From assembly GCF_001541925.1 (NCBI RefSeq), contig NZ_LQMW01000017.1, positions 62,001 through 126,000 of the forward strand: DNA of 64,000 bases, given 5' to 3'. The stretch comes from Nitrosopumilus sp. Nsub (GTDB lineage Archaea; Thermoproteota; Nitrososphaeria; Nitrososphaerales; Nitrosopumilaceae). Below, one piece after another: positions 27,088 to 38,228 of the stretch. A program made the translations under genes and the position numbers. Position 1 is the stretch's first letter. Every line of letters starts with the position of its first letter. The notes beneath the pieces are model-generated. The model did not search any database. It was not told the DNA's origin and was given only the letters and a program-made list of their open reading frames with translations.

Positions 27088-27220
27088 AAAACAGCGTTAT
27101 ATTCGGTGGTTAAATAATCATCGAATTTTAGCTCAAGCTAGTCGTAATTTCTTTGAAAAAAATGAAAAAGGAGGCACATCACAAAAGATAAATTCCAAAA
27201 TGCTACGGGAATATTGTTTT

Positions 27221-28420
27221 ATGACTCAAAAAGGAATTCTTGCATTTTCAGGAGGACTGGATACATCAGTTGTGGTGAAATATTTACAAGAAGAACAAGA
27301 CATGGAGGTAATCACAGTCACAGTTGATGTAGGTCAAGGTGACGATGCAAAAAAAATTGCTGCAAAAGCAAAAAAACTCGGAGTGAAAAAACACTACAAT
27401 ATTGATGCAAAAAAAGAATTTGTTAAAGATTACATTTTTCCAGCAATTAAAGCAAATGCACTTTATCAAAAAAAATATTGTTTGGCAACAGCTCTTGCAA
27501 GACCACTTATTGCAGAAAAAGTTTTAGAGATTGCAAAAAAAGAAAAAGTTACTTCGTTAGCACACGGCTGTTCAGGTAAAGGAAATGATCAAGTACGTTT
27601 TGACATCACATTACGTTCTGGTTCAGATCTTCCAATCATAGCACCAATTCGTGATAAAAATTTAGATAGAGATACAGAATTAAAATTTGCCAACAAACAT
27701 GGAATTGAAATAGATTCAGTTGCTAAAAAATTTAGTATTGATCAAAATTTGTGGGGACGTGCAATAGAAGGAGGAGTTTTAGAGGATCCATACAACGAAC
27801 CACCAGATGATGCATTCATTTGGGTAAAAACAAAAGACTTACCAGACAAACCAACTTATTTAGAAATTAAATTTGAAAAAGGAATTCCAGTTGAAGTGGA
27901 CGGAAAAATAAAAGAATCACAAAAAATTATTGAATATATTAACAAAAAAGCTGGTGCAGCAGGTGTGGGAATAATTGATCATATTGAAGACAGAGTTGTA
28001 GGAATTAAATCACGTGAAGTGTATGAAACTCCTGCAGCAACTTGTTTAATTGAAGCACATGCAGATTTAGAAAAAATGGTTCATACAAAACATGAAAACA
28101 AATTCAAATCAATAATTGATGATGAATGGGCACATTTAGTATATTCAGGACTTTGGCAAGATCCACTCAAATCAGATCTGGATGGATTTATTGAAAGATC
28201 TCAAAAACCAGTATCTGGAACTGTAAAATTAAAGATGTATAAGGGTAGTTTGAGAGTAGTAGGAAGAAAATCAAAGAATTCATTGTATAGTCACGATATT
28301 GCTACTTATGGGGTAGAGTCGACATTTGACCAAAGATTAGCTAAAGGATTCGTAGAATTGTGGGGAATTCAGTCAACGGAAGCTAATAAATTACAAAAGA
28401 AAAGGAAATCAAAAACATGA
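27221..28420 (+). CDS. argG: Argininosuccinate synthase
   Basis: Joins citrulline and aspartate using ATP. From ATG 27221 the protein begins MTQKGILAFSGGLDTSVV, containing the P-loop-like SGGLDTS of the family; KGNDQVRFD and the C-terminal region also match. About 399 aa, the usual length. The open frame extends 144 bases upstream, but the family start and a TATA-like ATAAATT about 30 bases upstream favour 27221. The stop overlaps the start of lysW (ATGA), linking the last stages of arginine synthesis with the carrier. Confidence 0.94.
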   Translation: MTQKGILAFSGGLDTSVVVKYLQEEQDMEVITVTVDVGQGDDAKKIAAKAKKLGVKKHYNIDAKKEFVKDYIFPAIKANALYQKKYCLATALARPLIAEKVLEIAKKEKVTSLAHGCSGKGNDQVRFDITLRSGSDLPIIAPIRDKNLDRDTELKFANKHGIEIDSVAKKFSIDQNLWGRAIEGGVLEDPYNEPPDDAFIWVKTKDLPDKPTYLEIKFEKGIPVEVDGKIKESQKIIEYINKKAGAAGVGIIDHIEDRVVGIKSREVYETPAATCLIEAHADLEKMVHTKHENKFKSIIDDEWAHLVYSGLWQDPLKSDLDGFIERSQKPVSGTVKLKMYKGSLRVVGRKSKNSLYSHDIATYGVESTFDQRLAKGFVELWGIQSTEANKLQKKRKSKT

Positions 28421-28584
28421 ACTGTCCAGAATGTGACGCAAAACTCAACATCCCAGACGATGCCGCAGTAGGAGAAATTGTCTCCTGCCCTGATTGTGGA
28501 GCTGACTTTGAGATTTCTAAAAAAGAAGGATCAAATATCGAGCTCAAAGAAGCAGAAAGTGTAGGCGAAGACTGGGGAGAGTAA
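28417..28584 (+). CDS. lysW: LysW amino-group carrier protein (copy 1, ends in Glu)
   Basis: 55 aa acidic protein, MNCPECDAKLNIP then ISCP-like VSCPDCGADFEI, giving two C-x2-C zinc knuckles, and the C-terminal tail GEDWGE. In the known system the terminal Glu side chain is ligated to the amino group of glutamate or alpha-aminoadipate, protecting it through the pathway. It overlaps argG upstream and the ligase downstream (TAATG), placing it in the arginine set. Confidence 0.95.
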   Translation: MNCPECDAKLNIPDDAAVGEIVSCPDCGADFEISKKEGSNIELKEAESVGEDWGE

Positions 28585-29441
28585 TGTCGAAAATTAGCAT
28601 TGTTTTTGACCGTCTGAGAACGGAAGAAAAAATGCTCCAAAAGGAAGCCGCCGAATTAGGTCATACTGCAGAAATGTTGGATGCCAAAATTACACAAATC
28701 AACACAGATACTAAAAAAGATGATTTAGATTTAGGAGATGTAGTCTTAGAAAGATGTGTTAGTTATTTCAGAGGTCTTCATTTTACATCAGCTTTAGAAT
28801 TTTTAGATATTCCAGTTTTGAACAAATTTGATGTTGCAAGTATTTGTGGAAATAAAATGTTCATGACATTACTATTGAAAAAAAATAATATTCCAACACC
28901 TAAAACATATTTTTCATTTTCAAGTCAAAGTGCTACAGAAAATTTAGAAAAAGTTGGTTATCCTCTTGTAATCAAACCAGTGATTGGTAGTTGGGGAAGA
29001 GGAGTCATACCAATTAAAGATAAAGATACAATGGATGCAGTTGTAGAAGTAAGAGAGATTACAGACAGTCCTCATGATAGAATTTACTATTTACAAGAAG
29101 TGGTAAAAAGACCTCCAAGAGATATCAGAATCATTACAATAGGAGATGAACCAATTGCAGGAATGTATAGAAAATCATCAGGCGGATTTAAAACAAATAT
29201 TGCATTAGGTGCAGATCCTGAAATTTGTGAGATAACAAAAGAAATGGAAGAGATGGCAATTAAAGCATCACAAGCTATGGGTGGAGGAATTTTAGGAATA
29301 GACATGATGGAAGATGAAGAGAAGGGAATAGTAGTTCACGAAGTGAATAATACAGTGGAATTCAAAGGGTTAGCAAAAGTTGCGAAAAGAAACATACCAA
29401 AAGAAATGATTGAATTTGCTTTAGATTATGCCAGAAAATAA
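28584..29441 (+). CDS. argX: LysW-glutamate ligase (ArgX type)
   Basis: 285-aa ATP-grasp ligase of the RimK/LysX family, joining an amino acid to the LysW C-terminus. Motifs: KPVIGSWGRGVIP, RPPRDIRI, and the metal-binding EVNNTVEFKG. Compared with the second copy at 36256, the substrate region reads RKSSGGFKTNIALG rather than HWKTN, and LysX enzymes typically have an HW pair there, so I assign glutamate (arginine route). The neighbour argG agrees. Specificity is inferred. Confidence 0.86.
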   Translation: MSKISIVFDRLRTEEKMLQKEAAELGHTAEMLDAKITQINTDTKKDDLDLGDVVLERCVSYFRGLHFTSALEFLDIPVLNKFDVASICGNKMFMTLLLKKNNIPTPKTYFSFSSQSATENLEKVGYPLVIKPVIGSWGRGVIPIKDKDTMDAVVEVREITDSPHDRIYYLQEVVKRPPRDIRIITIGDEPIAGMYRKSSGGFKTNIALGADPEICEITKEMEEMAIKASQAMGGGILGIDMMEDEEKGIVVHEVNNTVEFKGLAKVAKRNIPKEMIEFALDYARK

Positions 29442-29473: not shown

Positions 29474-29803
29474 TTATCTAGGAAAATAAAACATTACTGC
29501 AATTCCAATTAAAACTACGATAGAACCAATTATTTCAAATTTATCAGGTTTTTTCTTATCTATCCAATATCCCCACAATAATGAAGATATTACAAAAAAT
29601 CCACCGTATGCAGCATAGACTTTTCCAAAATTTTCAGGTTGGAAAGTCATTACAATTCCATATGAAAATAAGATCAACCCTCCAACTAATCCAAAAATTT
29701 TTCCTTGATGATGCTTCAACCACCTCCATATCAAATAACCACCAGTAATTTCTAGTAATGCTGCAAAAAAGAAAATCCCCAAAGAACTCAGCGTATCAAT
29801 CAT
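29474..29803 (-). CDS. YnfA/UPF0060 small membrane protein, copy B
   Basis: 109 aa with four transmembrane helices and family phrases LEITGGYLIWRWL and VYAAYGGFFVISSLLWGYWID. YnfA proteins resemble small multidrug resistance (SMR) exporters. This copy overlaps the preceding paralog by eight bases and shares its layout, so they may form a hetero-oligomer like paired SMR proteins. Substrate unknown. ATG 29803. Confidence 0.85.
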   Translation of the reverse strand: MIDTLSSLGIFFFAALLEITGGYLIWRWLKHHQGKIFGLVGGLILFSYGIVMTFQPENFGKVYAAYGGFFVISSLLWGYWIDKKKPDKFEIIGSIVVLIGIAVMFYFPR

Positions 29804-30149
29804 TTTTTTCTCCTTTTCTCGGAATATAGAAAATTATCAAAATTCCAATTACAGCAATTGTTGCTCCAATTATCTCATATTGGTCAGGAAGTACTCCATC
29901 AATTAACCATCCCCAAAAAACAGACATTATAATAAAAACACCACCATATGCAGCATAGATTCGATGAAAATGCGTTTTTTGAAAGGTTGGAACTATTCCA
30001 TAAAGAAATAAAACAAATCCACCTAATGCACCCAACATCCAACTGAAATCATTTCTCAACCATAACCAAACAAGATAACCACCACCAATTTCTAAAAATC
30101 CAGCAATCACAAAAAGAAGAATAGAAGTCAAAATAGTTTTGGGAAACAT
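29796..30149 (-). CDS. YnfA/UPF0060 small membrane protein, copy A
   Basis: About 117 aa, four transmembrane helices, with LEIGGGYLVWLWL and IYAAYGGVFIIMSVFWGWLID matching copy B at the same places. ATG 30149 chosen; a GTG at 30158 would add three residues. First gene of the pair, overlapping the second by eight bases. Confidence 0.85.
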   Translation of the reverse strand: MFPKTILTSILLFVIAGFLEIGGGYLVWLWLRNDFSWMLGALGGFVLFLYGIVPTFQKTHFHRIYAAYGGVFIIMSVFWGWLIDGVLPDQYEIIGATIAVIGILIIFYIPRKGEKND

Positions 30150-30247
30150 TACAATCACAATAATTTCTAAATGTAAGAATAAAAAGTTGCATTAAAAAAA
30201 TAATTTATTATTTTTAAGAGAATGAAATCAAAAAGATGGAAACAATT

Positions 30248-31353: not shown

Positions 31354-32400
31354 ATGAAAGTAGGAGTTGTAGGAGCATCAGGGTATGTAGGTGGAGAAAC
31401 ACTTCGTTTACTAGTTAACCACCCAGATGTTGAGATCACAACAGTAACTTCAAGACAACATGTAGGAGAATATCTTCATAGAGTTCAACCTAGTTTAAAG
31501 GGATTCACAGATCTAACTTTTTCAGAATTAGATTATGATAAATTAACTGATAAATGTGATGTAGTATTCACAGCAGTTCCTCATGGAACAGCAACAGAAA
31601 TTGTAAAAGCATTATACGATAGAGGAATCAAGATTATTGACTTAAGTGCAGATTACAGATTGCATAATCAAGAAGCATACGATAAATGGTATGGCTGGAC
31701 ACATCCACATCCAGATTATTTACCAAAATCAGTTTTTGGAGTTCCAGAACTACATAGAGAAGAAATTAAAAAAGCACAACTTGTCTCATGTCCAGGATGC
31801 ATGGCAGTTACATCAACACTAGCACTTGCACCATTAATTAAAAATGACCTCATAGATACAAATCACATAATTGTAGATTCAAAAATTGGTTCATCGGGTG
31901 CAGGTTCAGGTTCTGGAACAGCACATGCAATGCGTGCAGGGGTAATTAGACCATACAAACCAGCAAAGCACAGACACACAGGCGAAATCGAACAAGAATT
32001 AAGTGAAATTGCAGGAAGTAAAATCAAAGTATCAATGAGCCCACATGCAGTAGATGTTGTTAGAGGAATTTTGTGTACAAATCACACATTTTTGAAAAAA
32101 GACATGGAGCAAAAAGAATTGTGGAAAATATATCGTGAAGCTTATGGTGATGAAAAATTTGTTAGACTAATCAGAGATAAAAAAGGACTTTACAAATTCC
32201 CTGATCCAAAATTCTTAGTAGGTTCAAACTTTTGTGATATTGGATTTGACTTTGATGAAGACAATAATAGATTAATTGCATTATCAGCATCAGATAATTT
32301 AATGAAAGGTGCAGCAGGTTCTGCAATTCAAAACATGAATGTTATGTGTGGTTTTGATGAAATGAGCGGATTAAGATATACACCGTTAACTCCTGTTTAG
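31354..32400 (+). CDS. argC: LysW-glutamyl/aminoadipyl-phosphate reductase (ArgC/LysY)
   Basis: 348-aa NADPH-dependent reductase. Rossmann start VGVVGASGYVGGETLRLL, catalytic Cys in VSCPGCMAVTS, and the GSSGAGSG segment after it, all as in ArgC/LysY. In the LysW pathways one enzyme usually serves both the glutamyl (arginine) and aminoadipyl (lysine) phosphates, and only this copy is seen in the window. First gene of a compact operon; argB follows after two bases. Confidence 0.92.
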   Translation: MKVGVVGASGYVGGETLRLLVNHPDVEITTVTSRQHVGEYLHRVQPSLKGFTDLTFSELDYDKLTDKCDVVFTAVPHGTATEIVKALYDRGIKIIDLSADYRLHNQEAYDKWYGWTHPHPDYLPKSVFGVPELHREEIKKAQLVSCPGCMAVTSTLALAPLIKNDLIDTNHIIVDSKIGSSGAGSGSGTAHAMRAGVIRPYKPAKHRHTGEIEQELSEIAGSKIKVSMSPHAVDVVRGILCTNHTFLKKDMEQKELWKIYREAYGDEKFVRLIRDKKGLYKFPDPKFLVGSNFCDIGFDFDEDNNRLIALSASDNLMKGAAGSAIQNMNVMCGFDEMSGLRYTPLTPV

Positions 32401-32402
32401 AA

Positions 32403-33206
32403 ATGATCACAATTAAAATCGGCGGAAGTGTAGTAGATGATTTACATCAATCAACAATTTCAGATATTAAAAAAATTGCTGAGACAGAAGGCATCATAAT
32501 AGTTCATGGAGGAGGAAAAGAAGTCACAAAAGTATGTGAGCAATTAGGAAAAGAACCAAAATTTGTTACATCACCAAGTGGAATTAAGAGTAGATATACA
32601 GACAAAGAAACTGCTGAAATTTTTACAATGGTCATGTCAGGTCGAATAAACAAAACAATCGTTCAGATGCTTCAAAAAAATGGAATTAACGCAATTGGAT
32701 TGTCAGGCGTAGATGCTAAAGTCATCGAAGCAGACAGAAAAAAGAAACTCCTCATAATGAATGAGAAAGGAAGAAAACAAGCAATTGACGGAGGATATAC
32801 AGGTAAAATTAAAAATGTCAATTCGGAATTTATCAGATCATTATTAGATAGAGGGTTAACACCAGTCATTTCCCCAATTGCAATTAGTGAAGAGGCAGAA
32901 TTTCTCAATATAGACGGAGACAGAGCAGCAGCATACGTTGCAGGTAGTGTCAAAAGTGACAAAGTATTATTCATTACAAATGTAGACGGGCTTTTAATGG
33001 AGGATAAAGTTGTTCCAAAATTGACATTGGCTGAAGCAAAAGAAATTAGACCTAAAATAGGTCCAGGTATGGAAAAAAAGATTTTGGCGTCAACTGAAGC
33101 ACTAGACATGGGAGTAAAACAAGCTTTTATTGCAAATGGACAAAAAGAGAATCCTATTTCTACAGCTATTGCACATGATAATTGTACGGTGATTGAACAT
33201 GAGTGA
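32403..33206 (+). CDS. argB: LysW-aminoadipate/glutamate kinase (ArgB/LysZ)
   Basis: 267-aa amino-acid kinase that phosphorylates the side carboxylate of the LysW-bound substrate. IKIGGSVVDD binds ATP, VHGGGKEVT binds the substrate, INIDGDR-like FLNIDGDRAAA and GPGMEKKI near the end bind nucleotide. The archaeal LysZ/ArgB clade uses LysW substrates, fitting the two lysW genes nearby. ATG 32403; the stop overlaps the next start. Confidence 0.92.
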   Translation: MITIKIGGSVVDDLHQSTISDIKKIAETEGIIIVHGGGKEVTKVCEQLGKEPKFVTSPSGIKSRYTDKETAEIFTMVMSGRINKTIVQMLQKNGINAIGLSGVDAKVIEADRKKKLLIMNEKGRKQAIDGGYTGKIKNVNSEFIRSLLDRGLTPVISPIAISEEAEFLNIDGDRAAAYVAGSVKSDKVLFITNVDGLLMEDKVVPKLTLAEAKEIRPKIGPGMEKKILASTEALDMGVKQAFIANGQKENPISTAIAHDNCTVIEHE

Positions 33207-34380
33207 AGATCAACACATGGGAAATCTGTATCAGAGATTTCCAGTTACAATTGAAAAAGGAGTTAAAGCCCATGTTTGGGATACTGATGGAAAAGAATAC
33301 ATCGATTGTATGGGAGGTTATGGTGTTGCACTAGTAGGACACCAAAATCAAAGAGTTAACAATGCAATAAAAGAACAAGTTGATAAAATAATTACAGTTC
33401 ACAGTTCACTTTACAATAAAACAAGAGAAGAATTTTTGAAAAAATTAATTGAGATTGCCCCTGAAGGTCTAACACAAGTACATTTGAACAATAGTGGTGC
33501 AGAAGCAGTTGAAGCTGCAATGAAATTTGCAAGAAAGTTTACAGGGAAAAAAGGAATGGTTGCAATGAAAGGTTCGTACCATGGAAAATCATTTGGTGCG
33601 TTATCATTAACGTTTAATCCAAAATATAGAAAATCTTTTTCACCTTTAGTTGAAAAAGTATCTTTTTCATCTTTTGGAGACATAGAATCACTTCGCTCTG
33701 TAATTGATGAAGATACAGCATTCATAATTTTAGAACCAATCCAAGGAGAAAGTGGAATTGTTGTTGCTCCAGACGGATTCTTACAAGATGTTAGAAAACT
33801 ATGTGATGAAAAAGGAATTTTATTAATTTTTGACGAAATTCAAGCAGGATTAGGAAGAACAGGTCGATTATGGGCAGGAGAACATTGGAATACGATTCCA
33901 GATATTCTATGTCTTGCAAAGGGAATTGCAGGAGGGATACCAATGGGCGCAACACTAGTTCGACCAGACATATTATCTTCAATTAGTAAAGGAGAACACT
34001 CATCAACATTTGGAGGAAATCCAATATCTTGTGCAGCAGGATTGGCAGCACTTACAACAATTACTGAAGATGGATTAATTGAAAATTCTAAAAAAATGGG
34101 AGAAATTTTTAGAGAAGGGTTAGAAAAATTAAAAGAAAAACACACGATGATTAGAGAGATAAGAGGAAAAGGGTTAATGATTGGTGTCGAAATGAAATTT
34201 GAAGTCAGAGATATTTTGATGGGTTTAATTCAAGAAGGTGTCCTAATGTTATATTCAGGAAGAAACATACTAAGAATATTACCACCGTTGGTGATTGAAG
34301 AAGAAGACGTAACAAAAGTTTTACATGCTTTAGATATTGTATTAACAAGAGAGGAAGAAAAGAGAAATGTACAAGGATAA
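33199..34380 (+). CDS. argD: LysW-lysine/ornithine aminotransferase (ArgD/LysJ)
   Basis: Class III PLP aminotransferase, about 393 aa. NNSGAEAVEAAMKFAR, IILEPIQGESG, the DEIQ motif and CLAKGIAGG with the PLP-binding lysine are present. It transfers an amino group from glutamate to the LysW-bound semialdehyde. ATG 33199 lies inside the argB 3' end; TTG 33193 is an alternative. Its 3' end overlaps the Lrp-type gene by 14 bases. Confidence 0.92.
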   Translation: MSEDQHMGNLYQRFPVTIEKGVKAHVWDTDGKEYIDCMGGYGVALVGHQNQRVNNAIKEQVDKIITVHSSLYNKTREEFLKKLIEIAPEGLTQVHLNNSGAEAVEAAMKFARKFTGKKGMVAMKGSYHGKSFGALSLTFNPKYRKSFSPLVEKVSFSSFGDIESLRSVIDEDTAFIILEPIQGESGIVVAPDGFLQDVRKLCDEKGILLIFDEIQAGLGRTGRLWAGEHWNTIPDILCLAKGIAGGIPMGATLVRPDILSSISKGEHSSTFGGNPISCAAGLAALTTITEDGLIENSKKMGEIFREGLEKLKEKHTMIREIRGKGLMIGVEMKFEVRDILMGLIQEGVLMLYSGRNILRILPPLVIEEEDVTKVLHALDIVLTREEEKRNVQG

Positions 34381-34786
34381 AATAGATGAAAAAATCATAG
34401 GGTATCTTAAAGAAGACTCAAGAGAATCTTTTGTAGATATTGGTAAAAAACTCAAACTTTCAGAATCAGCTGTACGAAGAAGAGTAAAAAATTTAGTGGA
34501 TAGTAAAACGATAAGTAAATTTACCATAGAGATTGGAGAAGACAATGTTACAAGTGCAATTGTTTTAGTTTCAGTTGATTCAGCTACAGACACATCAAAA
34601 GTTTCAGCAAAACTTGCCAAACTGGAAGGAGTAAAAACGGTTTATGAAATTACAGGACAATACGACATTACTACAATTATGAGTGGTTCAAGTATTGCAG
34701 AAATTAACAATAGTATTGATGCATTAAGAAAAATTTCAGGGGTAGTAGATACCAACACTGTAATTATTTTAAGAAAAGTTGCGTAA
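34367..34786 (+). CDS. Lrp/AsnC-family regulator (LysM-like)
   Basis: 139 aa: an N-terminal helix-turn-helix (KIIGYLKEDSRESFVDIGKKL then SESAVRRRVKNL) and a C-terminal RAM ligand-binding domain (VYEITGQYDITTIMSG). Lrp-type LysM proteins control lysine genes in Sulfolobus, and this gene lies inside the arginine/lysine operon, directly upstream of a promoter with repeated motifs. It likely senses lysine or arginine. Overlaps argD by 14 bases. Confidence 0.9.
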   Translation: MYKDKIDEKIIGYLKEDSRESFVDIGKKLKLSESAVRRRVKNLVDSKTISKFTIEIGEDNVTSAIVLVSVDSATDTSKVSAKLAKLEGVKTVYEITGQYDITTIMSGSSIAEINNSIDALRKISGVVDTNTVIILRKVA

Positions 34787-34902: not shown

Positions 34903-36069
34903 ATGAAAGATCCGAATCACTATGCAAATATGTATAATTCATATGAAAAAAATCCAAAAAAAATTAGAGTGTTAGACAGTACTTTAAGAGAAGGTGAACA
35001 ACATCCAGGAGTCTCATTTACAAATAAACAAAGAATTCAGATTGCATGGATGTTAGATTATTTTGGAGTGGATCAAATTGAAATTTCCCCAGTAGTATCA
35101 AAAGATCATCAAGAAGCAACTAAAACAATTATCAAACAAGGGTTAACAGCAGACATAGTTTCTCACGGTCGTGCACTTAAAGAAGACATAGATGTTTCAT
35201 TAGATTGTGATGCAAAATGGTGTGCAGCATATTTAGGAATATCAGATATACATCTTAAAGACAAACTCAGAATATCAAGAGAAGAAGCATTAGAAAGAGC
35301 TGTAGAAACTGTAGAATATGCAAAATCTCATGGATTAAAAATTAGATTTACAGTAGAGGATGGTAGTAGAGCAGAACCAGAATTTCTACTTAAAGTTTGT
35401 AAAGCAATTGAAGAAGTAGGTGTAGACAGAATCAGTTTGCCAGATACTGTAGGAATTTTACGTCCAATTGGAATGTTTAACTTTGTAAAAAAAGTTAGAG
35501 AAGTAGTAGACGTACCATTAGATGCACACGTACATAATGATATTGGATTGGCTGTTGCAAATGCATTTTCAGCTTGTGATGCAGGTGTTGATCAAATTCA
35601 TACAACAATTGATGGAATTGGAGAAAGAACAGGAATTCCGCCACTTGCAGAAGTAGCAGTTGCATTAACTTACTTGTACAAATCACCAAATGATTTTAGA
35701 TTAGATATGTTATTGGATTTATCGAAATTAATTGAAGATTATACAGAAATTAAACCATATGATTCAAAACCAATTGTGGGTTCAGCTGCATATAAACACA
35801 AAGCAGGTACACACCTTGCAGCAATTCTTAGAAATCCAGCAGCCTATGAGCCAATCCCACCAAGAGCTGTAGGAAATAGAAGAAGAATAGTTTTTGGAGA
35901 ATTAGCAGGAAAAACAGGTGCAGCCTATCTAATGTCATTATTAGGATTAGAAAAAGATGACACAGGTGCAAAAGCAGTTGCGTCAGGACTAAAGAATCTA
36001 AGAATGGGAGATCTAATTGAAATACCACTTGAAGATAGACTAGAAAAAAAGATGATTGAAGATAAATAA
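34903..36069 (+). CDS. Homocitrate synthase (alpha-aminoadipate lysine pathway)
   Basis: 388-aa member of the DRE-TIM/isopropylmalate synthase family. The DRE-type catalytic start is VLDSTLREGEQHPGVSF, the metal-binding HxH is DAHVHNDIGLAVANA, and PPLAEVAV and AYKHKAGTHL follow. Condenses acetyl-CoA with 2-oxoglutarate as the first step of lysine synthesis. Isopropylmalate or citramalate synthase are family alternatives, but lysW and lysX directly downstream make homocitrate synthase most likely. Probably leaderless. Confidence 0.86.
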   Translation: MKDPNHYANMYNSYEKNPKKIRVLDSTLREGEQHPGVSFTNKQRIQIAWMLDYFGVDQIEISPVVSKDHQEATKTIIKQGLTADIVSHGRALKEDIDVSLDCDAKWCAAYLGISDIHLKDKLRISREEALERAVETVEYAKSHGLKIRFTVEDGSRAEPEFLLKVCKAIEEVGVDRISLPDTVGILRPIGMFNFVKKVREVVDVPLDAHVHNDIGLAVANAFSACDAGVDQIHTTIDGIGERTGIPPLAEVAVALTYLYKSPNDFRLDMLLDLSKLIEDYTEIKPYDSKPIVGSAAYKHKAGTHLAAILRNPAAYEPIPPRAVGNRRRIVFGELAGKTGAAYLMSLLGLEKDDTGAKAVASGLKNLRMGDLIEIPLEDRLEKKMIEDK

Positions 36070-36091
36070 AGAGGAGAAATAAAGAAGAATT

Positions 36092-36259
36092 ATGTCAAAA
36101 TGTGAAGAATGTGATGCAGATATCTCAATTCCAAGTGATGCACTTGAAGGAGAAATTGTAACATGTCCCGAATGTGGCGCAAGTTTTGAATTAGCAAAAG
36201 GTTCAGATGGTTTTGATCTTAAGCCTGCTCAAACAGTTGGCGAGGATTGGGGCCAGTGA
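36092..36259 (+). CDS. lysW: LysW amino-group carrier protein (copy 2, ends in Gln)
   Basis: 55 aa, MSKCEECDADISIP then VTCPECGASFEL, with the two zinc knuckles and a tail reading TVGEDWGQ. The last codon is CAG (Gln), whereas LysW normally ends with the Glu that carries the substrate. Its stop overlaps the GTG start of lysX (GTGA), and homocitrate synthase lies 22 bases upstream with a GAGGAGA-type ribosome-binding site between. So it should be the lysine carrier; the Gln would need deamidation, an unusual linkage, or a sequence error. Confidence 0.92.
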   Translation: MSKCEECDADISIPSDALEGEIVTCPECGASFELAKGSDGFDLKPAQTVGEDWGQ

Positions 36260-37098
36260 ATCCTGATGTTACAATTCTTTACGATTCCATACGTTGGGAA
36301 GAAAAAGCTCTACTAGAAGCAGGTAAGAAAAAAGATATCAACATTCAGATGGTTGATTGTAAAAAACTTGCTTTAGATTTAGAAAAAAAGCCTAAAGATT
36401 ACGGAGTAGTTATTCAACGATGTGTTAGTTACTATAGAAATTTGCATTCAACAGCTGCTCTTGAAGGAATGGGAGTCAAAGTAATCAATTGTTTAAACAC
36501 AGGAGTATTTGCAGGAAATAAATTATTCACCCACATGCTATTAAAAAAATCAGGAGTTCCAACACCTGATGCAACAGTAGCATTCTCTAAAGATGCAGCT
36601 ATTGAAGCATTAGAAACTGATGGATATCCAAAAGTTATCAAACCAACAGTTGGTAGCTGGGGAAGATTAATTTCAAAAATTAATGATAAAGAATCGGCAG
36701 AAGGAATTATTGAAAGTAGGGAAACAATGTATCCAATTTATCAAATTCATTATTTAGAGGAATTTGTAAAAAGACCTCCAAGAGACATCAGAGCAATCAT
36801 GGTAGGAGATAAAATAGTTGCTGCAATATATAGAAAATCAGAACATTGGAAAACAAACATGGCATTAGGAGGAATTGCTGAGCCATGTGAAGTTACACAA
36901 GAAATGGAAGAAATGTGTATCAAAGCAAAAAAAGCTGTACAGGGAGATATCGTAGGCGTAGATTTAATGGAAAGTGAAGAAAAAGGGTTAGTGGTTCACG
37001 AAGTTAACAATACAACAGAATACAAAAACACTGTTAGAGTATGCGATGTAGACATACCTTCTCTAATGCTGGATTACGCAATGAAAGTAGAACGATAA
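36256..37098 (+). CDS. lysX: LysW-alpha-aminoadipate ligase (LysX type)
   Basis: About 280-aa ATP-grasp ligase. KPTVGSWGRLISK, RPPRDIRAIMV and VHEVNNTTEYKN are the nucleotide and metal sites. RKSEHWKTNMALGG matches the RRSxHWxTN segment of characterised LysX enzymes, which together with the homocitrate synthase neighbour supports alpha-aminoadipate as substrate. GTG 36256 overlapping lysW is preferred over the in-frame TTG at 36247. Paralog of the ArgX-type gene at 28584. Confidence 0.88.
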   Translation: MNPDVTILYDSIRWEEKALLEAGKKKDINIQMVDCKKLALDLEKKPKDYGVVIQRCVSYYRNLHSTAALEGMGVKVINCLNTGVFAGNKLFTHMLLKKSGVPTPDATVAFSKDAAIEALETDGYPKVIKPTVGSWGRLISKINDKESAEGIIESRETMYPIYQIHYLEEFVKRPPRDIRAIMVGDKIVAAIYRKSEHWKTNMALGGIAEPCEVTQEMEEMCIKAKKAVQGDIVGVDLMESEEKGLVVHEVNNTTEYKNTVRVCDVDIPSLMLDYAMKVER

Positions 37099-37100
37099 AA

Positions 37101-38228
37101 ATGGACGAACATTTTACAGTAACACCAAAATTCACAACAAAAATGTTGGAAAAAGCACTTCGACTTTACACACCATCACTTAGCGAAAGACCAATGGCAG
37201 AATTTTTAGCAGATAAATGCGATGATTTGGGATTTGAAGACATACAAATTGATGAAGTAGGAAACATTATTGCAAAAAAAGGTTCAGGTTCACCAAAAAT
37301 TTTGTTATGTGGGCACATGGATGTAGTTCCAGGAAAAGTAAAAGTTAGAAAAGAAGGAGATTCACTTTATGGACGTGGTGCATCTGATGCAAAAGCACCA
37401 TTAATGGCAATGCTATTTGCTGCAGCGTCAGTTAAAGAAAATCAAGGAACAGTAACTTTCGTAGGAGCTGTAGATGAAGAAGGAAATGCCATAGGAATCA
37501 AAAATATTGTAAAAAAACAAATGGATATGGATTATGCAGTATTTGGAGAACCTAGTGGAATCAAACAAGTAACGATTGCTTACAAAGGAAGGTTAGCAAT
37601 TAAACTAAAAATTAGTGTTTCAGATAGTTCACATGCTAGTGCCCCTTGGCTTTCAAAAAATGCAATTGAAGAATCAATAATTTTTGTTAAAGAATTAAAA
37701 GAAAAATTAGAAGCAAATCAAGAAGGTAAAACAAAAGGAATGTTACTTACTGCAACAATGACAGAAATTAAAGGTGGAACAAGTCATAACATCACACCAA
37801 AAGAATGTGAAATTCTTTTTGACATTAGAATTCCAGTAGATATGAATTGTAAAAACATTGAACAAAAAATTGCAACTTTAGTTAAAGAGATTTCTCAGAA
37901 AAGGGAGGTAGATGCATTTTATTCAATTTTAGATGAAACTGAACCATTCGAAGCAGCTCATAACTCATCATTAGTTAGAGCATTTACTCTAGGAATTATG
38001 CAAGTAGAAAAATCCAGACCAACATTAATTCGAAAAACAGGTACAGGAGACATGAATGTTTTAGGAAATCAATGGAAAATTCCAGTAATCACATATGGTC
38101 CAGGAGATCCACACGAAGCACATACAATTGATGAAAAAGTTTCAATTGAAGAATACCTTAAAGGCATAGAAATTTTCAAGGCTTCCTTACAGCATTTAAA
38201 AAGGCTACATGATAAAAAATTGCAATAA
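37101..38228 (+). CDS. lysK: LysW-lysine/ornithine hydrolase (LysK/ArgE, M20 family)
   Basis: About 375-aa zinc peptidase that releases lysine or ornithine from LysW. Metal-site motifs: CGHMDVVPG, GRGASDAKAPLMAML, VDEEGNAIG and FGEPSG, with a dimerisation domain between. ATG 37101 is two bases after the lysX stop; the frame stays open upstream inside lysX but without family similarity. It overlaps dphB by one base. Confidence 0.92.
   Translation: MDEHFTVTPKFTTKMLEKALRLYTPSLSERPMAEFLADKCDDLGFEDIQIDEVGNIIAKKGSGSPKILLCGHMDVVPGKVKVRKEGDSLYGRGASDAKAPLMAMLFAAASVKENQGTVTFVGAVDEEGNAIGIKNIVKKQMDMDYAVFGEPSGIKQVTIAYKGRLAIKLKISVSDSSHASAPWLSKNAIEESIIFVKELKEKLEANQEGKTKGMLLTATMTEIKGGTSHNITPKECEILFDIRIPVDMNCKNIEQKIATLVKEISQKREVDAFYSILDETEPFEAAHNSSLVRAFTLGIMQVEKSRPTLIRKTGTGDMNVLGNQWKIPVITYGPGDPHEAHTIDEKVSIEEYLKGIEIFKASLQHLKRLHDKKLQ

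Follow-up and report, generated by a model that had tools for sequence, protein, structure and literature searches.

The window (the whole stretch of DNA analysed, 64,000 nucleotides of Nitrosopumilus sp. Nsub) carries a joint arginine/lysine cluster distributed over three blocks (27164-29441, 31354-34786, and 34903-38228; Table 1), with two LysW carrier genes, which are the only two found in the 1.38-Mb genome. The LysY/ArgC reductase is probably common to both branches, and the gene preceding LysW2 was taken, from its context, as the homocitrate synthase. The EHWKTN of LysX2 aligns with the HWITN of 3vpd and 5k2m, so that LysX2 shares the HW-type substrate motif of the Thermus and Thermococcus enzymes (TtLysX and TkLysX), whereas ArgX has GF; the Gln-ended copy therefore belongs to the lysine branch. 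Within the same region, two adjoining small hydrophobic ORFs of 109 and 120 aa, on the minus strand at 29474-30158, look like related membrane proteins. In LysY, six columns (residues 47, 126, 193, 205, 299, and 346) separate the ammonia-oxidizing archaea (AOA) from the other families, which columns outnumber those of any other enzyme of the cluster.

Table 1. Features of the arginine/lysine cluster, in coordinates of the window
Feature	Position	Strand	Evidence or remark
argG, argininosuccinate synthase	27164-28420 (start codon approximate)	+	NF001770 523 bits
LysW1 (ArgW), Glu-ended, tail EDWGE	28417-28584	+	NF041070 90.8 bits
ArgX, glutamate-type LysW ligase, GF motif	28584-29441	+	TIGR02144 291 bits; adjoins argG and LysW1
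LysY/ArgC reductase	31354-32400	+	TIGR01850 420 bits
LysZ, [LysW]-aminoadipate/[LysW]-glutamate kinase	32403-33206	+	NF010662 308 bits, cut-off 194
LysJ aminotransferase	33193-34380	+	TIGR00707 434 bits, cut-off 410
Lrp-like regulator	34367-34786	+	Sequence reading; conserved in the cluster
Homocitrate/isopropylmalate synthase family gene	34903-36069	+	TIGR02146 377 bits, below cut-off 413.6; adjoins LysW2
LysW2, Gln-ended carrier, 55 aa (stop included)	36092-36259	+	NF041070 and PDB matches
LysW2 tail and stop, GAG GAT TGG GGC CAG TGA	36242-36259	+	Sequence
Terminal Gln codon CAG of lysW2	36254-36256	+	Followed by TGA 36257-36259; conserved in AOA
LysW C-terminal peptide, this species			GSDGFDLKPAQTVGEDWGQ
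LysX2, aminoadipate-type LysW ligase	36256-37098	+	TIGR02144 333 bits, cut-off 275.6
LysK, [LysW]-lysine hydrolase (M20)	37101-38228	+	TIGR01902 285 bits; 5xoy E=2e-55

LysW2 and its terminal residue

The sequence confirms what the preliminary description had read from it, namely that LysW2 ends in EDWGQ with CAG as the last codon, and that LysW1, beside argG, ends in EDWGE; the complete tail of LysW2 is V-G-E-D-W-G-Q, followed by TGA. The profile, the cysteines, and the synteny identify the protein as a LysW: NF041070 scored 89.2 bits, above its cut-off of 75 (the narrower TIGR01206 remaining under its cut-off of 53.2 for both copies of the window, at 31.3 and 35.3), the zinc-binding Cys 4, 7, 25, and 28 are all kept in the translation, the PDB matches are 3vpb_E and 3wwl, and the gene is overlapped by that of a LysX-type ligase. 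In profile, in the four cysteines, in the EDWG tail, and in adjoining LysX and pathway genes, LysW2 is thus like the LysW/ArgW carriers of Thermus, Sulfolobus, Thermococcus, and Natrinema; but whereas the characterised members end in the Glu that bears the cargo (PMC10433800), the residue encoded in LysW2 is Gln, and on the strength of its sequence we have filed the protein as a putative variant of LysW/ArgW, not as a standard member. Sites matching GARGAYTGGGG occur in the window only twice, in the tails of LysW1 and LysW2, the chance expectation being 0.07.

The GTG start of lysX2 (36256-36258) and the stop of lysW2 share an overlap of 4 nt (GTGA). We rejected this overlap as the cause of the CAG, because GAG would keep it as well and because in relatives the Gln end is also present without any overlap with the lysX start, as CAA TAA or CAG TAA.

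Distribution of the Gln end

Two patterns, GEDWG(E/Q)-stop and a Gln-only one, served to survey 400 genomes of the class. A Gln-ended LysW was found in 262 of the 290 genomes of three families (f1, f2, and f3), which we infer to be AOA families from the names of the matches and the LysX2 tree, and in none of the 110 genomes that represent 21 further families of the class. Loci of the genus to which the window belongs, and of other genera of its family, have CAG TGA at the end of LysW. A GTDB-wide scan for VGEDWGQ-stop, which pattern needs the V-G before EDWGQ and is therefore no proof of absence elsewhere, returned at least 116 stop-ended matches, all of the AOA lineage among the matches listed; the names of these are either of that lineage or of unclassified Thaumarchaeota, Nitrososphaerota, or archaea with a LysW of the same type, and the genera comprise Nitrosopumilus, Nitrosarchaeum, Nitrosotalea, Nitrosotenuis, Nitrosopelagicus, Cenarchaeum, Nitrososphaera, Nitrosocosmicus, Nitrosopolaris, and Nitrosocaldus. 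Three non-AOA matches (L168, L181, and L233) have TGG in place of the stop and were set aside as chance.

In the loci examined, the last residue was either Glu or Gln in all 326 intact LysW. No LysW ending in a residue of the DBN codon set was found in the 400 genomes, Lys, Asp, Asn, and His lying outside that pattern. A match to EDWGV (L322:280-1521, G286) was rejected as a LysW, being the end of an ammonium-transporter-like ORF whose terminal GEDWGV resembles the LysW tail, probably by chance.

To the question, raised by the preliminary description, of whether Gln is conserved in the homocitrate-linked copies of Thaumarchaeota, the AOA survey and the loci with gene context answer largely in the affirmative; nevertheless, Gln was found in either or both copies, and some lineages have reverted to Glu. 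If the states are written as Arg copy/Lys copy, from those loci, the Nitrosopumilaceae are mostly E/Q; the Nitrosocaldus-type g23 is E/Q, and so is g26; g31 is E/E; the Nitrososphaera-type g28, along with g46 and g48, is Q/Q; and in the Nitrosopolaris-type g30 and g36 the states are swapped, Q/E. The Nitrosocosmicus-type g24, and also g58, have one LysW only, which is Gln-ended, though both ArgX and LysX are present; in these (L122-L125, L274) no LysW lies beside argX, the sole copy being the one beside LysX2, and in g24 argG directly adjoins argX. In g41 (G286, G309) there are one Gln-ended LysW and one LysX, and both ArgX and its LysW are missing between argG and LysY (L134 of G309; G286), so that the single LysX may serve both substrates. 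A second LysW located away from argG/argX was seen in G001 (VAEDWGE, L304) and in the g15 genomes (EDWGQ; L302, L303, L319, and L320 of G015 and G033).

With these patterns a Glu-ended LysW was not found in any of the 17 Nitrososphaera-type (g28) or the 15 Nitrosocosmicus-type (g24) genomes, in all of which the count of Gln-ended copies equalled the total of Glu- and Gln-ended ones; the protein search covered a subset of these genomes, single-contig ones included, and the gene context was read as well. N. viennensis grows in a mineral medium with vitamins and pyruvate, without amino acids (PMC4129164). Unless another route exists, a Gln-ended LysW would therefore support both the arginine and the lysine pathways in the Gln-only species, and the Gln-only genera, together with the swapped and reverted states, imply that Gln-ended carriers must work.

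Exchange of Glu and Gln and the ligase

On the LysX2 tree the neighbouring LysW switches between Glu and Gln at least six times, and on the ArgX tree at least three times, several inner branches being weakly supported; many of the tree rows were found by the Gln pattern, which circumstance over-represents Gln without inflating the minimum count of changes. The clearest instance is a clade of four species inside the Gln-ended Nitrosopumilus, whose LysW2 ends in GAG (Glu); five fixed positions set the LysX2 of that clade apart from its sisters, three of them N-terminal and none in a conserved motif. Of the LysX2 columns invariant with Gln-ended partners, 49 of 60 are also invariant with Glu-ended ones; GSWGR—the motif that recognises EDWGE (PMC10433800)—as well as PPRDIR and YR..W.T are invariant with either carrier end, and a scan of some 280 columns of LysX2 detected no residue that consistently tracked that end. 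Gln and Glu thus look exchangeable at the end of LysW, and such an exchange without a change in the active site of the ligase would favour deamidation over a different LysX chemistry.

Two positions of LysX2 were considered in this regard. Position 168, which is Glu in nearly all AOA and Gln in the other families, was rejected as a compensating swap: ArgX keeps Gln there with Gln-ended partners, the Nitrosocaldus-type LysX likewise has Gln with a Gln-ended partner, and the LysX of g30, g36, and g31 keep Glu with Glu-ended ones, so that the residue marks the clade and does not vary with the last residue of the carrier. At position 34, three of five Glu/Gln contrasts show a change from D to N; both Nitrosopumilaceae reversions nevertheless keep the D, and N is seen with some Gln-ended partners too, which makes this position a weak lead only.

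Proposed activation of the Gln-ended carrier

The LysW of other species holds its cargo on the gamma-carboxyl of the last residue, a Glu, and replacing that Glu by Ala abolishes arginine synthesis in Natrinema (PMC10433800); a terminal Gln blocks the usual site. Genera without a Glu-ended carrier thus point to an undescribed way of activation, most simply a prior removal of the amide. We propose that LysW2 would be a working LysW that is translated as a precursor with a Gln end, and that the side-chain amide of this Gln would be hydrolysed to Glu after translation; by the usual ATP-dependent reaction LysX2 would then join aminoadipate to the new gamma-carboxyl. The lysine would be completed and released by LysZ, LysY, LysJ, and LysK. 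If a single LysZ/LysY/LysJ/LysK set handles both Glu- and Gln-ended carriers, which are served by near-identical ligases, a conversion of Gln to Glu before ligation is the simplest solution. To the whole account, with LysK as the likeliest deamidase, we assign a probability of about 0.58; the deamidation as such seems to us rather probable. We would give similar credence to the broader statement that one of two things happens to the carrier: its activation by a protein-glutamine deamidase, dedicated or moonlighting, that has no relation to Dop, or else its loading at the alpha-carboxyl.

LysK is the only enzyme of the cluster from which the cleavage of a gamma-amide at the end of LysW is expected and, since lysine release is the hydrolysis of a gamma-amide on the very residue in question, would be the leading candidate for the deamidase. 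The enzyme is present in single copy in the genome, directly downstream of lysX2; each AOA genome checked has one LysK adjoining lysX2, which is the sole close relative of its kind in them, the two f2 genomes having in addition a distant second M20 protein. We know of no deamidase activity of LysK, and the only AOA-specific change in it is one conservative column, with none standing out. Furthermore, LysK is general among the users of LysW, yet the Gln end was seen only in the AOA, which leaves something AOA-specific unexplained; we hold the role of LysK as the deamidase to be less likely than not. CheD was rejected as a candidate because, though present in the same genome, it is missing from several Gln-bearing genomes, the Gln-only Nitrosocosmicus-type included. 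Peptidase_C26 gave partial matches only, in every genome and every control alike, and was uninformative for this reason.

The precedent that the preliminary description had seen in Pup is useful in principle. Like LysW2, Pup is small and is encoded with a C-terminal Gln, which is made Glu before side-chain ligation in Pup and would have to be in LysW2; furthermore, Dop both deamidates PupQ and cuts the isopeptide bond on the same residue (PMC8599861), and as an example of one enzyme performing deamidation and cleavage it suggests that LysK may do both. LysW is nevertheless an unrelated carrier and LysX an ATP-grasp ligase of another fold; the conversion of Gln to Glu, known for Pup, is for LysW2 a proposal by analogy; and a profile search for Dop/PafA homologues (PF03136), which found the Corynebacterium control, found none in 20 genomes.

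The main rival to deamidation is that the LysX and ArgX of the AOA act on the alpha-carboxyl of the last residue, activating it and linking it to the substrate by an ordinary peptide bond, so that the amide of the Gln side chain stays untouched. The statement in the preliminary description that a Gln cannot be ligated directly was an inference, since the alpha-carboxyl of Gln stays free. LysX2 belongs to the same superfamily as RimK, CofF, and MptN, of which the RimK-type alpha-L-glutamate ligases work in this way, and with an unreactive side chain an exchange of Glu and Gln would be almost neutral. Against such a possibility, which we judge unlikely, stand the restriction of the terminus to Glu or Gln in all 326 LysW, the lack of any DBN-codon-set end in the 400 genomes (Lys, Asp, Asn, and His not being covered), the near-identical ligases that serve both carrier ends without motif changes, the shared downstream enzymes, and the use of the gamma-carboxyl by the characterised LysX (PMC10433800), whose GSWGR is retained in LysX2; the latter, moreover, fits LysX best (333 bits; the general family scored 288 and MptN 174).

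A direct amide exchange, in which the Gln amide nitrogen would be swapped for the amine of aminoadipate with release of ammonia and without a free Glu intermediate, would yield the normal gamma-linked product that the shared downstream enzymes expect; LysX2, however, retains the conserved positions of LysX, and the Glu-ended orthologues would need another route, for which reasons we hold this reading to be quite improbable. That the Gln-ended copy is a regulatory or inactive paralogue, with the Glu-ended one doing all the work, would agree with the two LysW of this genome, but hardly with the Nitrososphaera- and Nitrosocosmicus-type genomes devoid of a Glu-ended copy or with the states swapped between copies in g30 and g36, and has very little probability. 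Finally, the wrong base entertained by the preliminary description, CAG for GAG, would be a single change in sequencing or assembly, but the relatives exclude it for practical purposes, with a Gln end in 262 surveyed genomes encoded by both CAG and CAA.

The AOA rank with the most abundant archaea, and the synthesis of arginine and lysine via LysW is thought to depend on the terminal Glu. That this residue has changed across the whole clade, and that some genera are Gln-only, indicates an activation step missing from current pathway models. The genome-scale model of N. maritimus, for example, adds the LysW ligation as a plain step (PMC6038301). In the literature searched, which was poor in subscription papers, we encountered neither EDWGQ nor a deamidation of LysW, and others may have noticed them before. 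A natural experiment is provided by sister species whose ligases are nearly the same and whose carriers end in either Gln or Glu. The two main answers are an independently evolved Pup-like deamidation or an alpha-ligation. If true, either the deamidase or the alpha-loading would be a new chemistry for amino-group carriers, and the latter would mean a biosynthesis carried out on an ordinary peptide bond at the C-terminus of a protein.
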